In this document: piece by piece, positions 2,671 to 12,734 of the stretch
Layout: every line of letters begins with the position of its first letter
Position numbering within the stretch: position 1 is the first letter of the stretch
Assembly: GCA_022447225.1 (NCBI GenBank)
Contig: JAKVAZ010000007.1
Location: 236,475 to 300,474, forward strand
Origin: Fuerstiella sp.
GTDB taxonomy: Bacteria > Planctomycetota > Planctomycetia > Planctomycetales > Planctomycetaceae
DNA: 64,000 nucleotides
Direction of reading: 5' to 3'
The notes under the pieces: generated by a model
Databases searched by the model: none
What the model was told of the DNA's origin: nothing
The model's input: only the letters and a program-made list of their open reading frames with translations
Program-made: the position numbers and the translations under genes

Positions 2671-3687
2671 TTGAAGATCGTTCCGTCAACTGCGACAGCC
2701 GAGGTGCAGCAGGATCGCACCAGTACACTCCGGGCGGACGTTTCCCTGCTGGGAGCCGTCGTGATCTGGGGCATCAATATTCCGGTGATGAAGATCGGTT
2801 TGGATCAGCTGGATCCGTTTGTGTTTAATGCGATTCGGCTGGTCACGTCCGCTGTCGTTCTGACAGGCTTCGCCGTTTGCGAACGGCACAGGACAGGATG
2901 GTCCCTGTCAGGGATCTCGTGGCGGCAAATCCTGATTTACGGATGTTTGGCGGCGGGGCTGTACCAGTTGCTGTTTCTGCTGGGAATTGCCGGAACGACG
3001 GCGGGTAACACCGGTCTGATCATCGCAACCATCCCCGCATGGACCGCGTTGCTGTCCACGTTGTTCATTGGCGAAAAACTGGCCGCAGGGGCCTGGGGCG
3101 GGCTGTGCCTGGCATTTTTGGGTACTGTGATTGTCGCGTTGCAGAGTGAAGATCTTAGCCGCGGTACTGAACATCTGGCCGGGAACCTGATCATTCTTGC
3201 CGCTGCACTGACATGGGCCGGTGGAACCGTGTACAGCCGGCCACTGCTGCGGTCTGTTTCTCCGATACAGCTGTCGGCAGCCGCAACGGTGATCACACTG
3301 CCGCTGCATTTACTGGTTGCCGCAGGACGTTACGAACAGAGCTGGACACAGCTTCAGTCGGTTAACCTGTGGCTGATTATTCTGTACGCCGGAGCCCTTT
3401 CTTCGGGACTGTCACTGCCGATGTGGAGCTATGGTGTACGGCATGCCGGAGCCGCACACGCTGCCACCTTACAAAATCTGGTACCACTGATCGCGATTGC
3501 GGTGGCATGGTTCAGCCGGGGAGAGGCTGTGACAGAAACTCAGTTGTGCGGGGGGGCCTTAATTCTGGGCGGTCTGATTATCATGCGTCTGAATCCGCAG
3601 ACCGGCAGTACCGTGCCACACAAGACCGACGTTGACACGGCTGATGCGGCAGACACTGAATGCCAGGAAGAAACGACGCCGCGTTAG
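2671..3687 (+). CDS. EamA/DMT-superfamily transporter
   Basis: A 338-residue membrane protein with about ten hydrophobic segments arranged as two EamA repeats, typical of drug/metabolite transporters such as RhaT/YdcZ-type exporters. The first repeat starts at SLLGAVVIWGINIPVMKIGL, the usual EamA opening. The first repeat closes around residue 150 and the second begins with LIILAALTWAGGTVYSRP-like sequence. A hydrophilic tail rich in Asp and Thr follows the last helix. The start is a TTG preceded directly by an in-frame stop at 2644, so few alternatives exist. It sits 120 bp upstream of the class II aldolase gene on the same strand, but the spacing does not prove cotranscription. Substrate cannot be predicted. 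Confidence 0.85.
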   Translation: MKIVPSTATAEVQQDRTSTLRADVSLLGAVVIWGINIPVMKIGLDQLDPFVFNAIRLVTSAVVLTGFAVCERHRTGWSLSGISWRQILIYGCLAAGLYQLLFLLGIAGTTAGNTGLIIATIPAWTALLSTLFIGEKLAAGAWGGLCLAFLGTVIVALQSEDLSRGTEHLAGNLIILAAALTWAGGTVYSRPLLRSVSPIQLSAAATVITLPLHLLVAAGRYEQSWTQLQSVNLWLIILYAGALSSGLSLPMWSYGVRHAGAAHAATLQNLVPLIAIAVAWFSRGEAVTETQLCGGALILGGLIIMRLNPQTGSTVPHKTDVDTADAADTECQEETTPR

Positions 3688-3807: not shown

Positions 3808-4530
3808 ATGATCACTGATATTGCGGAAACCCGGCGCGATATGGCGGCCGTGTTTCGATGGACCAGCCGGCTGGGGCTGAGTGAAGGCATCTGCAATCAC
3901 ATTTCTCTGGCACTGGACGATACCACCTTTCTTGTCAATCCTCAGGGGCTGCACTGGTCGGAGCTGCGAGCCGGCGATCTGCTTGTTGTTGACCATGACG
4001 GGATCGTCCTGGAAGGACAGGGAGTTGTGGAACCGACCGCCCTGTTCATTCATGCCAGAATCCATCTGGGGCTTCCGCACGCTCGCTGTGTTCTGCATAC
4101 CCATATGCCATATGCCACTGCGATCACTTCAATCGAGGGTGGTCGTGTGATCATGGCGAATCAGAACGCGCTGCGATTCTTCAATGACATCGCTTACAGC
4201 GATGAATATGACGGACTGGCGCTGAACGCGACGGAAGGCGATCGGATCTGTGGTGAACTGGGTGATAAACGCGTTCTTTTCCTGGCCAGCCATGGTGTGA
4301 TCGTGGTCGGACCGTCGCTTGCTGTTGGCTTTGATGATCTTTACTATCTGGAACGAGCCTGCCAGGTGCAGATGATCGCCCAGTCGACACAGATGCCGTT
4401 GAATATTGTCGACGATCAGACGGCGGAGAAAACGCGTCAGCAGTTTCGGCAGAGCCAGCTGTTTGCAGAAGACCATCTTCGTGCCATTCGTCGTATTCTC
4501 GATCGCGAATGTCCGGACTATGCAACCTGA
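3808..4530 (+). CDS. Class II aldolase/adducin-family protein
   Basis: A 240-residue protein of the class II aldolase/adducin fold (fuculose-phosphate aldolase, ribulose-5-phosphate epimerase, methylthioribulose-phosphate dehydratase and others). The metal site is visible: HTH at residues 97-99 in VLHTHMPYATA, a third His at 162 in LASHGVIVVGPS, and Glu75 in VVEPTALF at the position of the catalytic acid in FucA. AAAAGGA lies about 9 bp upstream of the ATG. The KARI-like gene begins 31 bp downstream, so the two are very probably one transcript. Family membership is clear; which sugar phosphate or hydroxy acid is used cannot be read from the sequence. The closest general type is the adducin-like branch, not AraD, which has different phosphate-binding sequence. 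Confidence 0.88.
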   Translation: MITDIAETRRDMAAVFRWTSRLGLSEGICNHISLALDDTTFLVNPQGLHWSELRAGDLLVVDHDGIVLEGQGVVEPTALFIHARIHLGLPHARCVLHTHMPYATAITSIEGGRVIMANQNALRFFNDIAYSDEYDGLALNATEGDRICGELGDKRVLFLASHGVIVVGPSLAVGFDDLYYLERACQVQMIAQSTQMPLNIVDDQTAEKTRQQFRQSQLFAEDHLRAIRRILDRECPDYAT

Positions 4531-4561: not shown

Positions 4562-5566
4562 ATGCAGTTACTCAAGGATGATGACGTCTCCCTGAAGGCT
4601 CTGGACGGCAAAACGGTTTCCGTACTGGGTTACGGGAATCAGGGACGTGCACAGGCACTGAACCTGCGTGACAGTGGCGTACAGGTTGTGATTGGAAATC
4701 GGGATGATGAATACCGGGACCTGGCCGTCCGTGAGGGATTCGACCCGGTTGAAATTCCGGAAGCCGCTGCTGCCGGAGACGTACTGCTGGTGCTTACCAC
4801 CGATGAAGCGATGCCGCTCATCTGGGATGATCAGATAGCTCCGGGAATCCAAGCGGGCAACGTTCTTTGCTGGGGAAGTGGATACAACGTTGGTTTCGAA
4901 GTGATTAGTCCGTCCGTTGAGGCGGACTGGATCATGATCGCTCCGATGATGCCTGGTAATGTTGTTCGTACCAGATACGAACAGGGCCAGGGAGTGATCA
5001 GTCAGTTCGCGGTGGAGCGTGATACAACCGGGAATGCCCGTGAGGTTGCTCTGGCTTTGTGCAAAGGCATGGGACTGACGCGTGCCGGAATCTATCAGAC
5101 GTCTTTTCGCGGCGAGGCAGAACTCAATTTGTATACGGAGCAGGTTGTGTGGGCCGGACTCGCTGCGTGGCTGCAGTTTTGCTTTGAGTTAGCTGTCGAG
5201 AACGGAATCCCTTCGGAAAACGTGGTGATGGCTCTGTATGCGTCGACCGAGAGTTCTGAAATTATGGGATTGATGGCGGAATACGGATTCTACAAGCAAA
5301 TGAAGTATCACTCGACAACCAGCCAGTACGGAACGCTGACCCGCGCCGGGAATCTGATCAGCAAAGAAGTTCGGGACCAGGCGCGGCACAATCTGGTCAA
5401 CGACATTCAGGGAGGGGCATTCGTCAAGGAATGGACTCAGGACAACGAAGCTGCGTCAAAACGTCTGGAACAGTTTTGGCAGAAGGCTCTCGCTCATCCC
5501 ATGAGTCTTGCCGAAGATCGCGTGATCCGAATGATCCAGGACGTGAACAAAACCGCCACTGACTGA
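4562..5566 (+). CDS. Ketol-acid-reductoisomerase-like protein with altered active site
   Basis: A 334-residue protein colinear with class I ketol-acid reductoisomerase (IlvC) but divergent. The Rossmann motif GYGNQGRAQALNLRDSG (from about residue 23) and the C-terminal knotted-domain block DIQGGAFVKEW match IlvC. Aligned by eye to class I enzymes, the active-site His of the AHGF motif is Ser106, the Lys of APKxPG is Met129, the Asp of TDLFGEQ is Asn189, and the first Glu of FECLHE is not acidic; Glu193 and Glu230 remain. The cofactor loop reads GNRDDEY rather than the usual GLR...S, which suggests NADH rather than NADPH. It lies 31 bp after the class II aldolase gene, not in an ilvBN operon. 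It is probably not a working isomeroreductase; a simpler reductase or dehydrogenase role is inferred. Confidence 0.8.
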   Translation: MQLLKDDDVSLKALDGKTVSVLGYGNQGRAQALNLRDSGVQVVIGNRDDEYRDLAVREGFDPVEIPEAAAAGDVLLVLTTDEAMPLIWDDQIAPGIQAGNVLCWGSGYNVGFEVISPSVEADWIMIAPMMPGNVVRTRYEQGQGVISQFAVERDTTGNAREVALALCKGMGLTRAGIYQTSFRGEAELNLYTEQVVWAGLAAWLQFCFELAVENGIPSENVVMALYASTESSEIMGLMAEYGFYKQMKYHSTTSQYGTLTRAGNLISKEVRDQARHNLVNDIQGGAFVKEWTQDNEAASKRLEQFWQKALAHPMSLAEDRVIRMIQDVNKTATD

Positions 5567-5803: not shown

Positions 5804-6937
5804 TCACGGGGCCGTTTGATCGCAATCCCGCAGGAAGTCTGAGATCAGCCTGTTGACAGGAACGGCGGCTTCCATCTGGACCATGTGTCCGCAGTCTTCG
5901 AACACACGAACCCGCCAGCTGTCCGGGAGTTCTTCGGCGTGTTTGTGAGGAATGATTTGATCACTTTCACCCCAGACGACCTGGACCGGTATTTCGATCT
6001 GATCCAGTCGGTCTCGAAATACAACCGTCTGCTGGCCATCCGTCGTCAACTGGCCGACGATGGTCGTCAGTGCGTCCTGCACGCCGTCAACGCGTTTGAA
6101 CTTCAATAAATCGTCCACCGACTGACGAGTGACCTGCTCTCGGTCGGCGAAGAGTCGTTCGAGCCAGGGGCGGAGCTGTTTGCGGCGGTCGGTACGGACG
6201 ACAGCGTCGAGATACTCCTCATCAATATCCAGTCCGAGCCCGGCACTGGAAATCAGCGTGCAGGACAGCAGTCGATCGGAGTGTCGGAAAACGGTGTCCA
6301 TTGCGATACCTCCTCCCAGTGAGTGGCCTGCAAGGTGCACACGTGGCAGGTCCAGGGCATCCATCCAATCGCAGAGCACGCCGGTGAGTGTCTGGATTGA
6401 ACCGTCTCCCACGTCCTTTGACGACAGGCCGTGTCCCGGCAGATCCAGGGCATACACCGTTCGTTCTTCGGCAAGCGTGGCATGGTTGAACAACCAGTTA
6501 TTCAGGTTGCCGGTGAACCCGTGGACGAGAACCAAAGGCGGTCCACCCTCCCCCAGTTTCAGATATTGAATATTCCGGCTGCCGACCTCAATCGACGCGG
6601 GGGTGGTCTCCTGAGACTGATTCTGTTCTTCAACGGTTTCGACCACGAATCCCTCGACATACCGATCGATTTCTTCTTCGGGCACTGTGGGATCGGCGAC
6701 CACGGCCAGCAGTCCGCCAACCGGGATTTCCTGATCAGGCTGTGCTACCAGACGGCGCAGTGTTCCGCCAATTGGAGATTCCACCACTCCGATGGCCTTT
6801 TCGGTTTCAATTTCCAGGACTTCGTCGCCGGCGGCAATCACAGATCCTTCAGCGGCTTTCCATTCGCCGATGCGGCCCTGTGTCATTGCGAAACCCCATT
6901 TGGGCATGATCAGCTTGTCGATACGGGGGTTGCCCAC
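5804..6937 (-). CDS. acoC: Acetoin dehydrogenase E2 component (lipoyl domain fused to alpha/beta hydrolase)
   Basis: A 377-residue protein with an N-terminal lipoyl domain (residues about 5-85, lipoyl lysine K47 in IETEKA) joined by a Gln/Glu-rich linker to an alpha/beta hydrolase domain (about 120-375; nucleophile S206 in GHSLGG, Asp326, His351). This is the AcoC architecture of acetoin dehydrogenase complexes, in which the hydrolase domain replaces the usual acyltransferase domain and passes the acetyl group from the lipoyl arm to CoA. The GTG start overlaps the end of acoB by 28 bp, indicating translational coupling. No dihydrolipoamide dehydrogenase (E3) gene follows; E3 is presumably shared with other complexes. 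An internal ATG at residue 11 is a possible alternative start. Confidence 0.9.
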   Translation of the reverse strand: MGNPRIDKLIMPKWGFAMTQGRIGEWKAAEGSVIAAGDEVLEIETEKAIGVVESPIGGTLRRLVAQPDQEIPVGGLLAVVADPTVPEEEIDRYVEGFVVETVEEQNQSQETTPASIEVGSRNIQYLKLGEGGPPLVLVHGFTGNLNNWLFNHATLAEERTVYALDLPGHGLSSKDVGDGSIQTLTGVLCDWMDALDLPRVHLAGHSLGGGIAMDTVFRHSDRLLSCTLISSAGLGLDIDEEYLDAVVRTDRRKQLRPWLERLFADREQVTRQSVDDLLKFKRVDGVQDALTTIVGQLTTDGQQTVVFRDRLDQIEIPVQVVWGESDQIIPHKHAEELPDSWRVRVFEDCGHMVQMEAAVPVNRLISDFLRDCDQTAP

Positions 6938-7947
6938 TTTTGGTACTCCGAAACTTCGCGGACGGTTGGAATGATGTTCTCCGAGTTCGGTTTGTACAGG
7001 TCTTCCAGATTGTCACTGAACGGAACCGGAGTGTGCGGTGCGGTGACCATTTTAACGGGGGCCTTGAGTGCTCCGAACGCTTCCTGAGCAATCAACGCTG
7101 AGATATCAGTTGCCATGCTGCAACGAGGAGTTGCTTCATCGACGACAACCACGCGTCCGGTCTGTTCCACACTGTCGAGTACGGTTTCAACGTCCAGTGG
7201 AGAGGTCGTTCTGAGGTCAATGACCTCACAGTCAACTCCCTCTTTTGCCAGTTGTTCGGCAGCTTTGACGGACTCATGCACCATTTCGGACAGGGTGACG
7301 ATGGTGACATCGCTTCCTTCGCGGACGATTTCAGCTTCGCCGAACGGAATCGTATAAGATTCTTCGGGAACATCGCCTTCGAGCTGATACAGCCCCTTGT
7401 GCTCACAGAAGATGACCGGATCGTTGTCTCGAATTGCTGAGATCAGCAGGCCTTTGACATCGTAGGGAGTTGAAGGCACCACACACTTCAAACCGGGGAT
7501 GTGTGTGAAGATAGAATACAGTGACTGCGAATGCTGAGCCGCACCGCGAAATCCGGCGCCGATCATGGTGCGAATCACCACGGGAGTTTCTGCCTTACCT
7601 CCAAACATGTAGCGAAATTTTGCTGCCTGATTAAAAATCTGGTCGAAGCACACACCCAGAAAATCATTGAACATCAACTCAACCACCGGACGCAGACCTG
7701 CCGTTGCGGCACCAATACCGGCGCCGACAAATGCGGATTCGCTGATTGGTGTGTCCATCACGCGGTCGCCGTACTTTGCATACAGTCCTTTTGTGACGCC
7801 CAGCACGCCGCCCCATGCGTCTTCTTCGCCGTCAGCACCCTGCCCTCCCGCGATGTCTTCGCCCATCAGGATCACACTGGAATCCCTCGCCATCTCCTGA
7901 TCGAGGGCTTCGTTAATCGCCTGCTGATAGGTCAAAGTCCGGGCCAT
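6910..7947 (-). CDS. acoB: Acetoin dehydrogenase E1 component, beta subunit
   Basis: A 345-residue TPP-dependent dehydrogenase E1 beta subunit (transketolase pyrimidine domain followed by transketolase C domain). Hallmarks are GEDIAGGQGADGEEDAWGG near residue 30, then DTPISESAFVGAGIGAA, then VELMFNDFLG and, in the C-terminal domain, LRTTSPLDVETVLDSV. With AcoA it would decarboxylate/cleave acetoin, releasing acetaldehyde and forming hydroxyethyl-TPP. I chose the ATG at 7947 because an AGGAG lies 7 bp upstream; the GTG at 7965 would place that site inside the gene. Neighbours acoA (63 bp upstream) and acoC (overlapping) make a single operon. A generic pyruvate dehydrogenase E1 beta is the alternative, but the AcoC-type E2 favours acetoin. 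Confidence 0.9.
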   Translation of the reverse strand: MARTLTYQQAINEALDQEMARDSSVILMGEDIAGGQGADGEEDAWGGVLGVTKGLYAKYGDRVMDTPISESAFVGAGIGAATAGLRPVVELMFNDFLGVCFDQIFNQAAKFRYMFGGKAETPVVIRTMIGAGFRGAAQHSQSLYSIFTHIPGLKCVVPSTPYDVKGLLISAIRDNDPVIFCEHKGLYQLEGDVPEESYTIPFGEAEIVREGSDVTIVTLSEMVHESVKAAEQLAKEGVDCEVIDLRTTSPLDVETVLDSVEQTGRVVVVDEATPRCSMATDISALIAQEAFGALKAPVKMVTAPHTPVPFSDNLEDLYKPNSENIIPTVREVSEYQKWATPVSTS

Positions 7948-8010
7948 CGTGCAACTCCTGAACACAGGGAAAATGAACTGATGTCGAATTCAGTTTGTAT
8001 CGCAGAAAAA

Positions 8011-8979
8011 TCAGTAGGACACGTACACGTCTGTTAAAAGTTCTGCACGATCCGGCTTCGGTGCCGCCTTTGCGGCTGTCACGGAATCTTCGATCAAGGT
8101 TGCCACATCCTGATCGATTGCCTGCAGATCAGCCTGAGTCACGTCAGTGTCACGAGTGACGCGTTCGGCGAACAGTAACAGGCAGTCCTGTTCATCCCGC
8201 AGAATCTTGGTTTCATTCGGTCCGCGGTACGTTTGCGCATCGCCTTCGAAATGGCCGTAGTAGCGGTTGAGCTGACAGTCGATGAACGAGGGGCCTCCAC
8301 CGTTCCTTGCACGTTCGATGGCCTCTCCTGCCGCCGTATAGACAGCGAAGAAATCATGTCCGTCAACCCTTACAGCTGGCAATCCAAATCCTTCGGCACG
8401 CTTCGCATTGCTTTCGGCACCAATCGAATAAGAAGACGACGTTGCTTCTGCATATCCGTTGTCTTCCACCACAAAAATTGCCGGCAGGTTCCAGATCTTG
8501 GCCAAATTCATGCTTTCAAACGTCGTCCCCTGGTTTGAACCTCCGTCTCCGACAAAGGCGACGGCCACGTTGCCTTTTCCTGCCCGCTGCGCCGCAAGCG
8601 CCGCTCCACAGACGAGTGGTGGTCCGCCACCGACAATGCCATTGGCACCCATCATTCCCATGTCGAGATCCGCGATGTGCATCGACCCGCCCTTACCGCG
8701 ACAAAGCCCCGTGGTTCGTCCAAAGATCTCTGCCATCATGCGATTAACATCCACGCCTTTGGCAATGCAGTGTCCATGCCCGCGGTGCGTGGACGCGATA
8801 GAGTCTTCGTCGGTCAGATGACCACAAATACCGGCAGCACTGGCTTCTTCGCCGGCATAAAGATGTACGAACCCGGGGATTTCTCCGGCAGCAAACTCCA
8901 CGTGAACCCGTTCTTCGAACTCGCGAATTGTTTTCATCACCCGATACGTTCGCAGTAACTCATTCTTCGTGAGGTCCAT
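8011..8979 (-). CDS. acoA: Acetoin dehydrogenase E1 component, alpha subunit
   Basis: A 322-residue TPP-dependent E1 alpha subunit. The TPP motif runs from GDG at residues 144-146 (VGDGGSNQG) to the Asn at 174 (VVEDNGYA), and the substrate-channel blocks STHRGHGH (63-70) and GRTTGLCRGKGGSMH (87-101) are intact. These, and the NGYAEATSS segment, resemble AcoA more than PdhA. It is first in an acoA-acoB-acoC run on the minus strand. The 440 bp upstream carry no gene and must hold the promoter; I looked for a sigma-54 -24/-12 element, common upstream of proteobacterial aco operons, and saw none, and no acoR-like regulator is present in the window. Confidence 0.9.
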   Translation of the reverse strand: MDLTKNELLRTYRVMKTIREFEERVHVEFAAGEIPGFVHLYAGEEASAAGICGHLTDEDSIASTHRGHGHCIAKGVDVNRMMAEIFGRTTGLCRGKGGSMHIADLDMGMMGANGIVGGGPPLVCGAALAAQRAGKGNVAVAFVGDGGSNQGTTFESMNLAKIWNLPAIFVVEDNGYAEATSSSYSIGAESNAKRAEGFGLPAVRVDGHDFFAVYTAAGEAIERARNGGGPSFIDCQLNRYYGHFEGDAQTYRGPNETKILRDEQDCLLLFAERVTRDTDVTQADLQAIDQDVATLIEDSVTAAKAAPKPDRAELLTDVYVSY

Positions 8980-11683: not shown

Positions 11684-11789
11684 TTCCCAACAGGTGATGT
11701 GCAGATCAGTCGCGTTTATCGTGAATGCTTCTACTATGACAGCTCTGGTAAATGCTGAATGGTATCTGTTTTGGAAGGGAACTGTTTCT

Positions 11790-12734
11790 GTGGACCGTGA
11801 GAAACTGAAAAATCGATTATCCGGCTGCTATGTCACCGTTCCCACTATGTTTCAGGATGAGGACCTGGAACTGAATTTACCGGCCATCCGCAGACACGTG
11901 CAGTTTCTTCGCGAGGGAGGAATCAACGAGGACACGGCCGTCCTGCTGGCCGGTGGTGCTGCCGGTGATTTTTCCACAATGAGTTTTTCAGAGCGTTTGC
12001 AGGTTGCGGAAACTGTCATCGAGGCAGCTGACGGCAGGGTGCCGGTGGCCATGGGCGCGCAAACCACAAACACCCGCGAACTGATCGAACTGGCTCGAGC
12101 CGCCGAACGACTGGGAGCGGACTACATTCAGGTCTCTCCGCCGTTTTATTTCGGGCATACAGAAGAGGACTTCTTTGAATTCGTTGCTGCCGCCGCACAG
12201 GCCGCAGACGTAGGTATCATTGTCTACAACACCTACTGGACCAGTACGGGGGTTTCCACGGAAATGGTGGAACGACTGGCAGAGATTCCGAATATGGTCG
12301 GACTCAAATGGGCGACTGCGGACGCCACGTGGATGACGTTTGAATCTGTCGTGGCCCAGTTTTCAGATCGACTGAGCATCATCGATAATCAGAACCGCTT
12401 CCTGACCAGCCACATTCTTGGCGCCAGGAGTATTGAGCTTCATATCTGTAACCACTGGCCACAGTTCGGTGTAAAGCTTTGGCAGTTGCTGGAAGAACAA
12501 CGCTATGTCGAAGCCCAACAGCAAATGATGCGGGTCATTCTGCCCTTTATGCAACTCTGGGCCGAGATGGAGCAACACACCAGTGGCGACGGTTACCTCG
12601 ACAAACTTTGTATGGAGCTGGTGGGCCTCGACTCCAGCCGCTGTCGTCCTCCCACACGCGACATCCGTGAAAAATTTCAAGAGCAGACGCGCCGGATGCT
12701 GCTGGATTGCGGTACTCCGAATGTTCAGCAGTAA
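11790..12734 (+). CDS. DHDPS / N-acetylneuraminate lyase family protein
   Basis: A class I aldolase of the DapA/NanA family, 314 residues from a GTG start chosen because GGAAGGGA lies 9 bp upstream; an upstream in-frame ATG at 11694 would add 32 poorly conserved residues. The Schiff-base Lys is K173 (GLKWAT) and the catalytic Tyr is Y146 (VYNTY). The GxTGE phosphate-like loop is altered to GGAAGDF (about 55-61), so the oxo-acid substrate probably differs from pyruvate plus aspartate semialdehyde. It is divergent from the sialidase gene, not near lysine-biosynthesis genes, which makes an aldolase acting on a sugar acid plausible. A hairpin 12 bp past the stop may end the transcript. Confidence 0.86.
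   Translation: MDREKLKNRLSGCYVTVPTMFQDEDLELNLPAIRRHVQFLREGGINEDTAVLLAGGAAGDFSTMSFSERLQVAETVIEAADGRVPVAMGAQTTNTRELIELARAAERLGADYIQVSPPFYFGHTEEDFFEFVAAAAQAADVGIIVYNTYWTSTGVSTEMVERLAEIPNMVGLKWATADATWMTFESVVAQFSDRLSIIDNQNRFLTSHILGARSIELHICNHWPQFGVKLWQLLEEQRYVEAQQQMMRVILPFMQLWAEMEQHTSGDGYLDKLCMELVGLDSSRCRPPTRDIREKFQEQTRRMLLDCGTPNVQQ

Follow-up and report, generated by a model that had tools for sequence, protein, structure and literature searches.

A candidate metal-poor, NAD-linked hydroxy-acid oxidoreductase derived from ketol-acid reductoisomerase

In a 64,000-nucleotide stretch of DNA from Fuerstiella sp., called the window throughout, we found a protein of the ketol-acid reductoisomerase (KARI) fold which, judged by alignment, is without the carboxylate that bridges both Mg ions and without one of the two Glu residues of Mg II. 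KARI is a textbook two-step, two-metal enzyme. We give even chances to the reading that the window protein is a metal-poor NAD-linked hydroxy-acid oxidoreductase, which would have been derived from KARI in two steps and would act within a sugar-acid/hydroxy-acid operon. A bolder version, to which we attach somewhat less credence, would have the metal site discarded, with a metal-independent NAD-dependent hydroxy-acid dehydrogenase and a class II aldolase-fold enzyme forming an undescribed sugar-acid/hydroxy-acid pathway, and with the wider family as a large misannotated catabolic set. Within the limits of our literature search, we found no description of a KARI branch without the Mg ligands.

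Results

A full-length KARI fold with altered metal-site residues

The window protein, whose gene lies on a 517-kb contig, is a full-length class I KARI-fold protein (Table 1). Residues 14-325 are matched by the Pfam domains KARI_N (1.8e-51) and KARI_C (8.5e-25), the AlphaFold2 model has a mean pLDDT of 96.1 and a pTM of 0.91, and solved KARIs match this model end to end in VIA-align (best Z 38.5, rmsd 1.5, 322 residues, 35% identity). NAD_binding_2, a domain of the beta-hydroxyacid dehydrogenase family, was also found at residues 19-107 (23.9 bits, cut-off 21), and the C-terminal side is matched by KARI_C alone. A scan of viral contigs gave no relative.

Table 1. Coordinates in the window of the genes and residues discussed
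Feature	Position	Strand	Basis
EamA transporter, 338 aa, proposed operon transporter	2671..3687	+	PF00892; 120 bp upstream of the aldolase-fold gene
Class II aldolase/adducin-fold gene, 240 aa, proposed partner	3808..4530	+	PF00596 1.8e-40; NF005068 298.1 bits, cut-off 269
KARI-like paralogue, 334 aa	4562..5566	+	ORF with ATG start; Pfam, AlphaFold2, structure alignment
Cofactor loop G45-N46-R47-D48-D49-E50-Y51; Asp49 predicts NAD(H)	4694..4714	+	Alignment of 136 rows
Ser106, at the canonical His position	4877..4879	+	Ser also in 52/77 other family rows
Met129, at the Lys (canonical) or Arg (family) position	4946..4948	+	Met/Ile 5/5 clade; Arg 77/77; Lys 54/54
Asn189, at the Asp bridging both Mg in class I KARI	5126..5128	+	Asn 5/5 clade; Asp 74/77; Asp 54/54
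Glu193, metal-site Glu kept	5138..5140	+	136/136 rows
Ala224, at the first Glu of the FECxxHE block	5231..5233	+	Ala/Val 5/5 clade; Glu 76/77 (one Asp); Glu 54/54
Two-residue family insert, residues 227-228	5240..5245	+	Gap in 54/54 canonical rows
Glu230, kept	5249..5251	+	136/136 rows

The residues were compared in an alignment of 136 rows that holds the KARI-like family and 54 rows of canonical KARI. The canonical rows were picked by the motif GYG[SA]QG plus an HGFN or S.TAEYG-like motif, which 53 of 57 candidate loci passed; the 54th row is PDB 5e4r, a partial sequence. His106, Lys129, Asp189 and Glu224 are each present in 54 of the 54, the His count being partly built in by the HGFN motif of the filter and Lys, Asp and Glu lying outside it. 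Against these rows, an earlier reading made from the letters alone (the sequence-only reading), which had described a KARI fold with Ser106, Met129, Asn189 and no first Glu, was confirmed. Its statement that Glu193 and Glu230 are retained extends to every row of the alignment, as do Glu185 and Ser251 (136/136 each).

According to PMC5940873, Mg I of class I KARI is held by D191 and E195 and Mg II by D191, E227 and E231, so that D191 bridges both ions. Aligned to the Mg II set of Sac-KARI (D191, E227, E231), the window protein carries Asn189 and Ala224, and Glu230 alone is kept. Asn189 could still coordinate Mg, if weakly, and a weak or altered metal site is possible given Asn189, Glu193 and Glu230. 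Residues 220-229 contain no Asp or Glu in any of the five members of the clade described below, and the missing first Glu is thus independent of the alignment; residues 121-134 of the clade contain no Lys, Arg or His. A shift of the catalytic residues to other positions, the counter-case named in the sequence-only reading, is ruled out by these two stretches.

Family and clade alike retain the dinucleotide site, Asp81, Glu82, Glu193, Glu230 and Ser251. One of the alignments behind this comprised the window and 60 of the 80 family loci fetched (see below); L056 and L112 were omitted because a stop codon interrupts the stretch that was matched, and 18 others as near-duplicates or for space. The stop codon is a single one in each stretch (L056 8001-8987 and L112 8001-8993).

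Two layers of sequence change

Scanning GTDB contigs with an alignment, we confirmed 348 relatives and fetched the best 80 of the 348. The record titles of the family loci name Planctomycetota, Lentisphaerota, Verrucomicrobiota, Hydrogenedentota, Armatimonadota, Chloroflexota and Acidobacteriota, and also archaea, among them Asgard lineages. In a tree of the 136 rows, built by a quick method with SH-aLRT values as the only support, a group of 82 rows, with the window and PDB 6jcv among them, separates from the 54 canonical rows with a split support of 100, which agrees with the earlier proposal of a branch apart from ilvC; 6jcv sits on a long branch and its placement inside the family is unsure. 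Left out of the tree were L033 and L034, copies of L043 and L053, and L035, a copy of L001.

One family trait is a two-residue insert ahead of Glu230, absent from all 54 canonical rows. Outside the window clade, the 77 family rows hold Ser106 in 52 and His106 in 22, Arg129 in 77, Asp49 in 76, Asp189 in 74 and Glu224 in 76. The window protein shares the family traits, i.e. the grouping with 6jcv, the HSxTSQYG block, Asp49 and the insert. Read from the aligned rows, the changes come in two layers, a family-wide one (position 106, Arg at 129, Asp49, the insert) and then a clade-specific one (129, 189 and 224).

The His and Lys changes stressed in the sequence-only reading are therefore real but not peculiar to the window protein, given the Ser, His and Arg129 counts of the other family rows. 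Ser106 by itself is no sign of lost function: 6jcv has Ser there and Arg at 129, and by their titles the PDB entries of Sso-KARI (6jcv and others) contain Mg2+, either NADH or NADPH, and CPD, so that those changes alone do not abolish metal or inhibitor binding. By the alignment, the informative losses are 129, 189 and 224, not Ser106. Sso-KARI ('putative ketol-acid reductoisomerase 2' of Sulfolobus solfataricus) shares Ser106, Asp49, the HSTTSQYG block and the two-residue insert with the window protein, but it keeps Arg129, Asp189 and Glu224, which the window protein does not, and its entries hold Mg2+. KARI activity has reportedly been assayed for Sso-KARI.

A separate sub-clade of the family (L074, L080 and L083; support 100) holds Asn189, SPRAMG, and Ser-Ser-Tyr for Ser-Gly-Tyr. 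It retains Arg129 and Glu224, which makes this an independent change of the bridging Asp.

Three losses confined to five proteins

In the quick tree, the window protein forms a clade with L036, L037, L038 and L039 (support 100, stem 0.51). All five have Met or Ile at residue 129, Asn at 189 and Ala or Val at 224, and the joint loss of Arg129, Asp189 and Glu224 is, among the aligned sequences, limited to these five proteins. With the three residues missing in 5/5, we treat the clade as a sub-clade of its own, which the tree nests within the family. Of the 52 positions with a conservation of at least 95% across the other 77 rows, 129, 189 and 224, and no others, are altered in all five members; at a limit of at least 85%, there are 88 positions and nine such alterations, these three included. 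The hypergeometric values (9e-4 and 0.013) are descriptive, as the six catalytic positions were hand-chosen and common descent is ignored.

The nearest clade member, L036, comes from another assembly and is 95% identical (dS 0.43). As the losses are common to five members and L036 stands at this distance, sequencing error is unlikely, and chance or misassembly is ruled out by the 517-kb contig together with the same losses in L036 and in L037-L039. The window gene is under purifying selection: dN/dS against L036 is 0.065 (dN 0.028, dS 0.43), compared with 0.040 for the adjoining aldolase-fold gene and 0.010 for the canonical ilvC of the own genome versus that of the L036 genome, dS being saturated or undefined for the L037 and L038 pairs. 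A pseudogene is unlikely at this ratio. The gene is rare: in the class survey, the own genome and one other out of 397 gave a match at 1e-80. In the phylum survey (294 genomes), identities above 50% among the matches listed were found for the own genome, G130 (58%) and G061 (55%), and neither of the latter two relatives shows the three losses.

A cofactor loop of the NAD type

Position 49 is Asp in 81 of the 82 family rows and Ser, Thr or Gly in the 54 canonical rows. Acidic residues at the phosphate side of the loop mark NADH-preferring KARIs, as stated in PMC5940873. The KARI paralogue BurG binds NAD+, with Asn48 and Asp51 excluding NADP (PMC9359912); by alignment offset, not residue by residue, these correspond to Asn46 and Asp49 of the window protein. 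From Asp49 at the phosphate side we predict NAD(H), and its use by the window protein is likely, which upholds the NADH preference proposed earlier. The accompanying claim that the loop lacks the usual Ser/Arg set stands for the Ser/Thr side, which is lost to Asp49, but not for Arg, since Arg47 is present.

An aldolase-fold gene directly upstream

The aldolase-fold gene ends 31 bp upstream of the KARI-like gene on the same strand, and a homologue is found 30-31 bp upstream in four of the five clade members (window, L036, L037 and L038). In the proteins of these four, the HTH motif is intact in 4/4 and the SHG motif is NHG in two. The gene ahead of the aldolase-fold gene encodes an EamA protein in the window and L036 and an MFS protein in L037 and L038; the latter are nearest to the D-galactonate transporter model TIGR00893 (147-151 bits vs a cut-off of 395), and the candidate EamA transporter is nearest to exporter or carboxylate/amine models, all below their cut-offs. 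In L039, the 192 visible upstream bases encode no aldolase-fold gene, and its genome (a MAG) is without a match at 1e-20; downstream lie an amidohydrolase nearest to L-fucono-1,5-lactonase, below cut-off, and a Gfo/Idh-like gene assigned by eye. Around the window gene, no ilv gene was found among ten neighbouring genes scanned, and no promoter-like site between positions 2500 and 6000.

Across the phylum, the aldolase-fold gene was found in 2 of 294 genomes at 1e-30, the own genome and one at 35%, a rarity that is consistent with a pairing to the KARI-like gene. Among the best 80 loci, many of them on short contigs, an aldolase match at 1e-10 was obtained for L036, L037, L038 and L100 (31%, 4.7 kb off). 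In the genomes of 24 family loci, the aldolase-fold gene is present in the clade genomes G294, G295 and G296, and more distant homologues in G326 (32%) and G327 (54%), both of which carry other members of the KARI-like family; the G327 homologue lies elsewhere in that genome and has uninformative neighbours. The solved matches of the partner include fuculose phosphate aldolases, and also the decarboxylase NovR, TqaM and adducins; it may thus not be an aldolase.

Two further gene sets lie nearby in the window. At 5804-8979 (- strand), a convergent trio encodes a lipoyl domain-alpha/beta hydrolase fusion, E1 beta and E1 alpha, the fusion scoring 445.9 bits (cut-off 307) with the acetoin dehydrogenase E2 model NF011457. 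An acetoin-dehydrogenase-like E2 and part of an E1 beta were also seen in L036. A tie to these genes is unsupported, as they stand beside the KARI-like gene only in the window and L036 (the L037-L039 contigs span 4-17 kb). A DHDPS-family gene (11694-12734) lies 6 kb from the KARI-like gene, and a 60% homologue (L083 9085-10113) directly follows the KARI-like gene of a member of the Asn189 sub-clade; in G294-G296, the best DHDPS homologues are on contigs other than that of the KARI-like gene.

A canonical ilvC elsewhere in the genome

The sequence-only reading had put forward, as a check, a search for a canonical ilvC elsewhere in the genome. This search was positive: in the 33 contigs of the own genome (5.43 Mb in all, 97% complete), one other KARI_C match lies on contig C22, with the canonical motifs SHGFNIHF, APKGPG, ETDLFGEQ and FECMHE. 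The four other clade genomes each have a second, stronger KARI_C match. Genomes were searched for 45 of the 80 loci; 34 have a second KARI_C match (135.9-231.7 bits) beside the weaker family member, resting on the KARI_C score and with residues seen for part of them, and 11 have a single match. One genome (G329, that of L095) has four KARI_C matches in all, two of which lie on the same strand about 700 bp apart (contig C304, 3408-4887) as a possible tandem pair.

The window protein scores 239.7 bits with the ilvC model TIGR00465, above its cut-off of 226.15, and automatic annotation may well label it ilvC. With NF004017 it scores 270.6 bits, below the cut-off of 336, and with NF009940 and NF003557 it is also below theirs. 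Since the metal ligands of IlvC are not all present, we do not class it as a ketol-acid reductoisomerase. It has the whole-length fold, the Rossmann motif, Glu193, Glu230 and Ser251 in common with class I IlvC (EC 1.1.1.86), and differs from it by Ser106, Met129, Asn189, Ala224, Asp49, the two-residue insert and the separate genomic ilvC.

Discussion

Based on the two layers of change, we propose a first step in which an ancient group of paralogues would have abandoned the synthesis of branched-chain amino acids and acquired an NAD-type cofactor loop, and a second step in which the window clade would have lost the bridging Asp, a Glu of Mg II and the Lys/Arg at the same time. With metal ligands lost but Glu193, Glu230, Ser251 and the dinucleotide site still in place, hydride transfer on a 2-hydroxy or 2-oxo acid would remain, and the Mg-dependent alkyl shift is probably gone. 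The window enzyme would most likely oxidise (or reduce) a hydroxy or polyhydroxy acid that the proposed upstream transporter carries, and its product would go on to be cleaved or decarboxylated by the class II aldolase-fold partner. Loss of metal dependence, the direction, the substrate class and the sequential action of the two enzymes are points that we infer. A role as hydroxy-acid or keto-acid oxidoreductase, as the sequence-only reading had suggested, is the most plausible one.

According to PMC4353338, KARI isomerises and then reduces, both activities are separable in vitro, and KARIs are promiscuous reductases. When residue 232 of BurG was changed from Glu to Gln, cyclopropanol was no longer formed, but NADH-linked hydroxypyruvate reduction persisted (PMC9359912), and Glu230 of the window protein is likely, by alignment offset, the counterpart of this residue.

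Could the protein nevertheless use metal? A metal-dependent reductoisomerase or oxidoisomerase acting on another branched hydroxy acid, with a site rearranged around Asn189, Glu193, Glu230 and perhaps Glu185, would account for the invariance of Glu185, Glu193, Glu230 and Ser251 in all rows. It would also be in keeping with the Asn189 of three other family members that have Arg129 and Glu224, and with the Mg2+ deposited with the family member 6jcv. We hold this to be unlikely, as three conserved polar or acidic positions are altered together only in the window clade and the stretch 220-229 is without an acid.

Distinctly less probable is a BurG-like transient-redox enzyme, in which a hydroxy acid would first be oxidised by bound NAD+ and, once a bond had been formed or cleaved, the product would be re-reduced. 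Of the published KARIs put to a new use that we came across, BurG, a cyclopropanol synthase, is the closest: as described in PMC9359912, it is, like the window protein, a KARI paralogue beside a normal ilvC, it has bound NAD+, and it carries Asn and Asp against NADP. We compared it by search and structure rows, outside the tree, and its entries match the window model with Z 37.6 at 2.0 A, but canonical KARIs align to the model equally well. In addition, BurG uses two Mg ions (PMC9359912), the ligands of which are partly lost in the window protein.

A non-catalytic KARI-fold protein, e.g. a regulator or structural partner of the aldolase-fold protein, has a marginally smaller chance still. The alteration of several catalytic positions and the tight linkage to the aldolase-fold gene would fit such a role; the conserved dinucleotide site, Asp81, Glu82, Glu193, Glu230 and Ser251 in both family and clade speak against it, as does L039, which has the protein without the aldolase-fold gene. 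Finally, an ordinary KARI of branched-chain amino-acid synthesis is highly improbable, the TIGR00465 score standing against the lost Mg ligands, the canonical ilvC of the own genome and the second, stronger KARI match of the four other clade genomes, the scores below cut-off with the three other models, and the ten scanned neighbours without an ilv gene.

Threonate-type acid-sugar pathways comprise a dehydrogenase, an isomerase, a DUF1537 kinase and the class II aldolase-fold protein OtnC. They offer an analogy only, in that a 6PGDH-superfamily oxidoreductase is encoded with a class II aldolase-fold protein; in the window set, the KARI fold would replace the beta-hydroxyacid dehydrogenase, and the own genome is without a PF07005 (DUF1537 kinase) match. 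D-apionate oxidoisomerase may be a functional parallel to the window protein. If the proposed reading as an NAD-linked oxidoreductase is true, a natural branch shows a reductoisomerase cut down to a single-step oxidoreductase, with the fold and the cofactor site kept. Because canonical enzymes, Arg-type proteins that have the metal ligands, and the stripped clade form nested groups, what each residue does can be tested directly. The case also points to an annotation problem, as the TIGR00465 cut-off is passed by a protein that is unlikely to make branched-chain amino acids.

Is a sugar-acid context common in the wider family? Among the 80 loci, same-strand neighbours include an SDR cluster in 9, a xylose-isomerase-like TIM barrel in 5, an aldehyde dehydrogenase of the ketoglutaric-semialdehyde type (nearest model) in 3 and a GntP permease in 2, each neighbour family being named from one representative. 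These genes point weakly to sugar-acid or hydroxy-acid catabolism, and the sugar-acid context is found in a minority of the wider-family loci. In four loci of Asgard-related archaea (L089, L096, L103 and L108), a SelB-type elongation factor-like gene, assigned by eye, follows the KARI-like gene after 51-66 bp.
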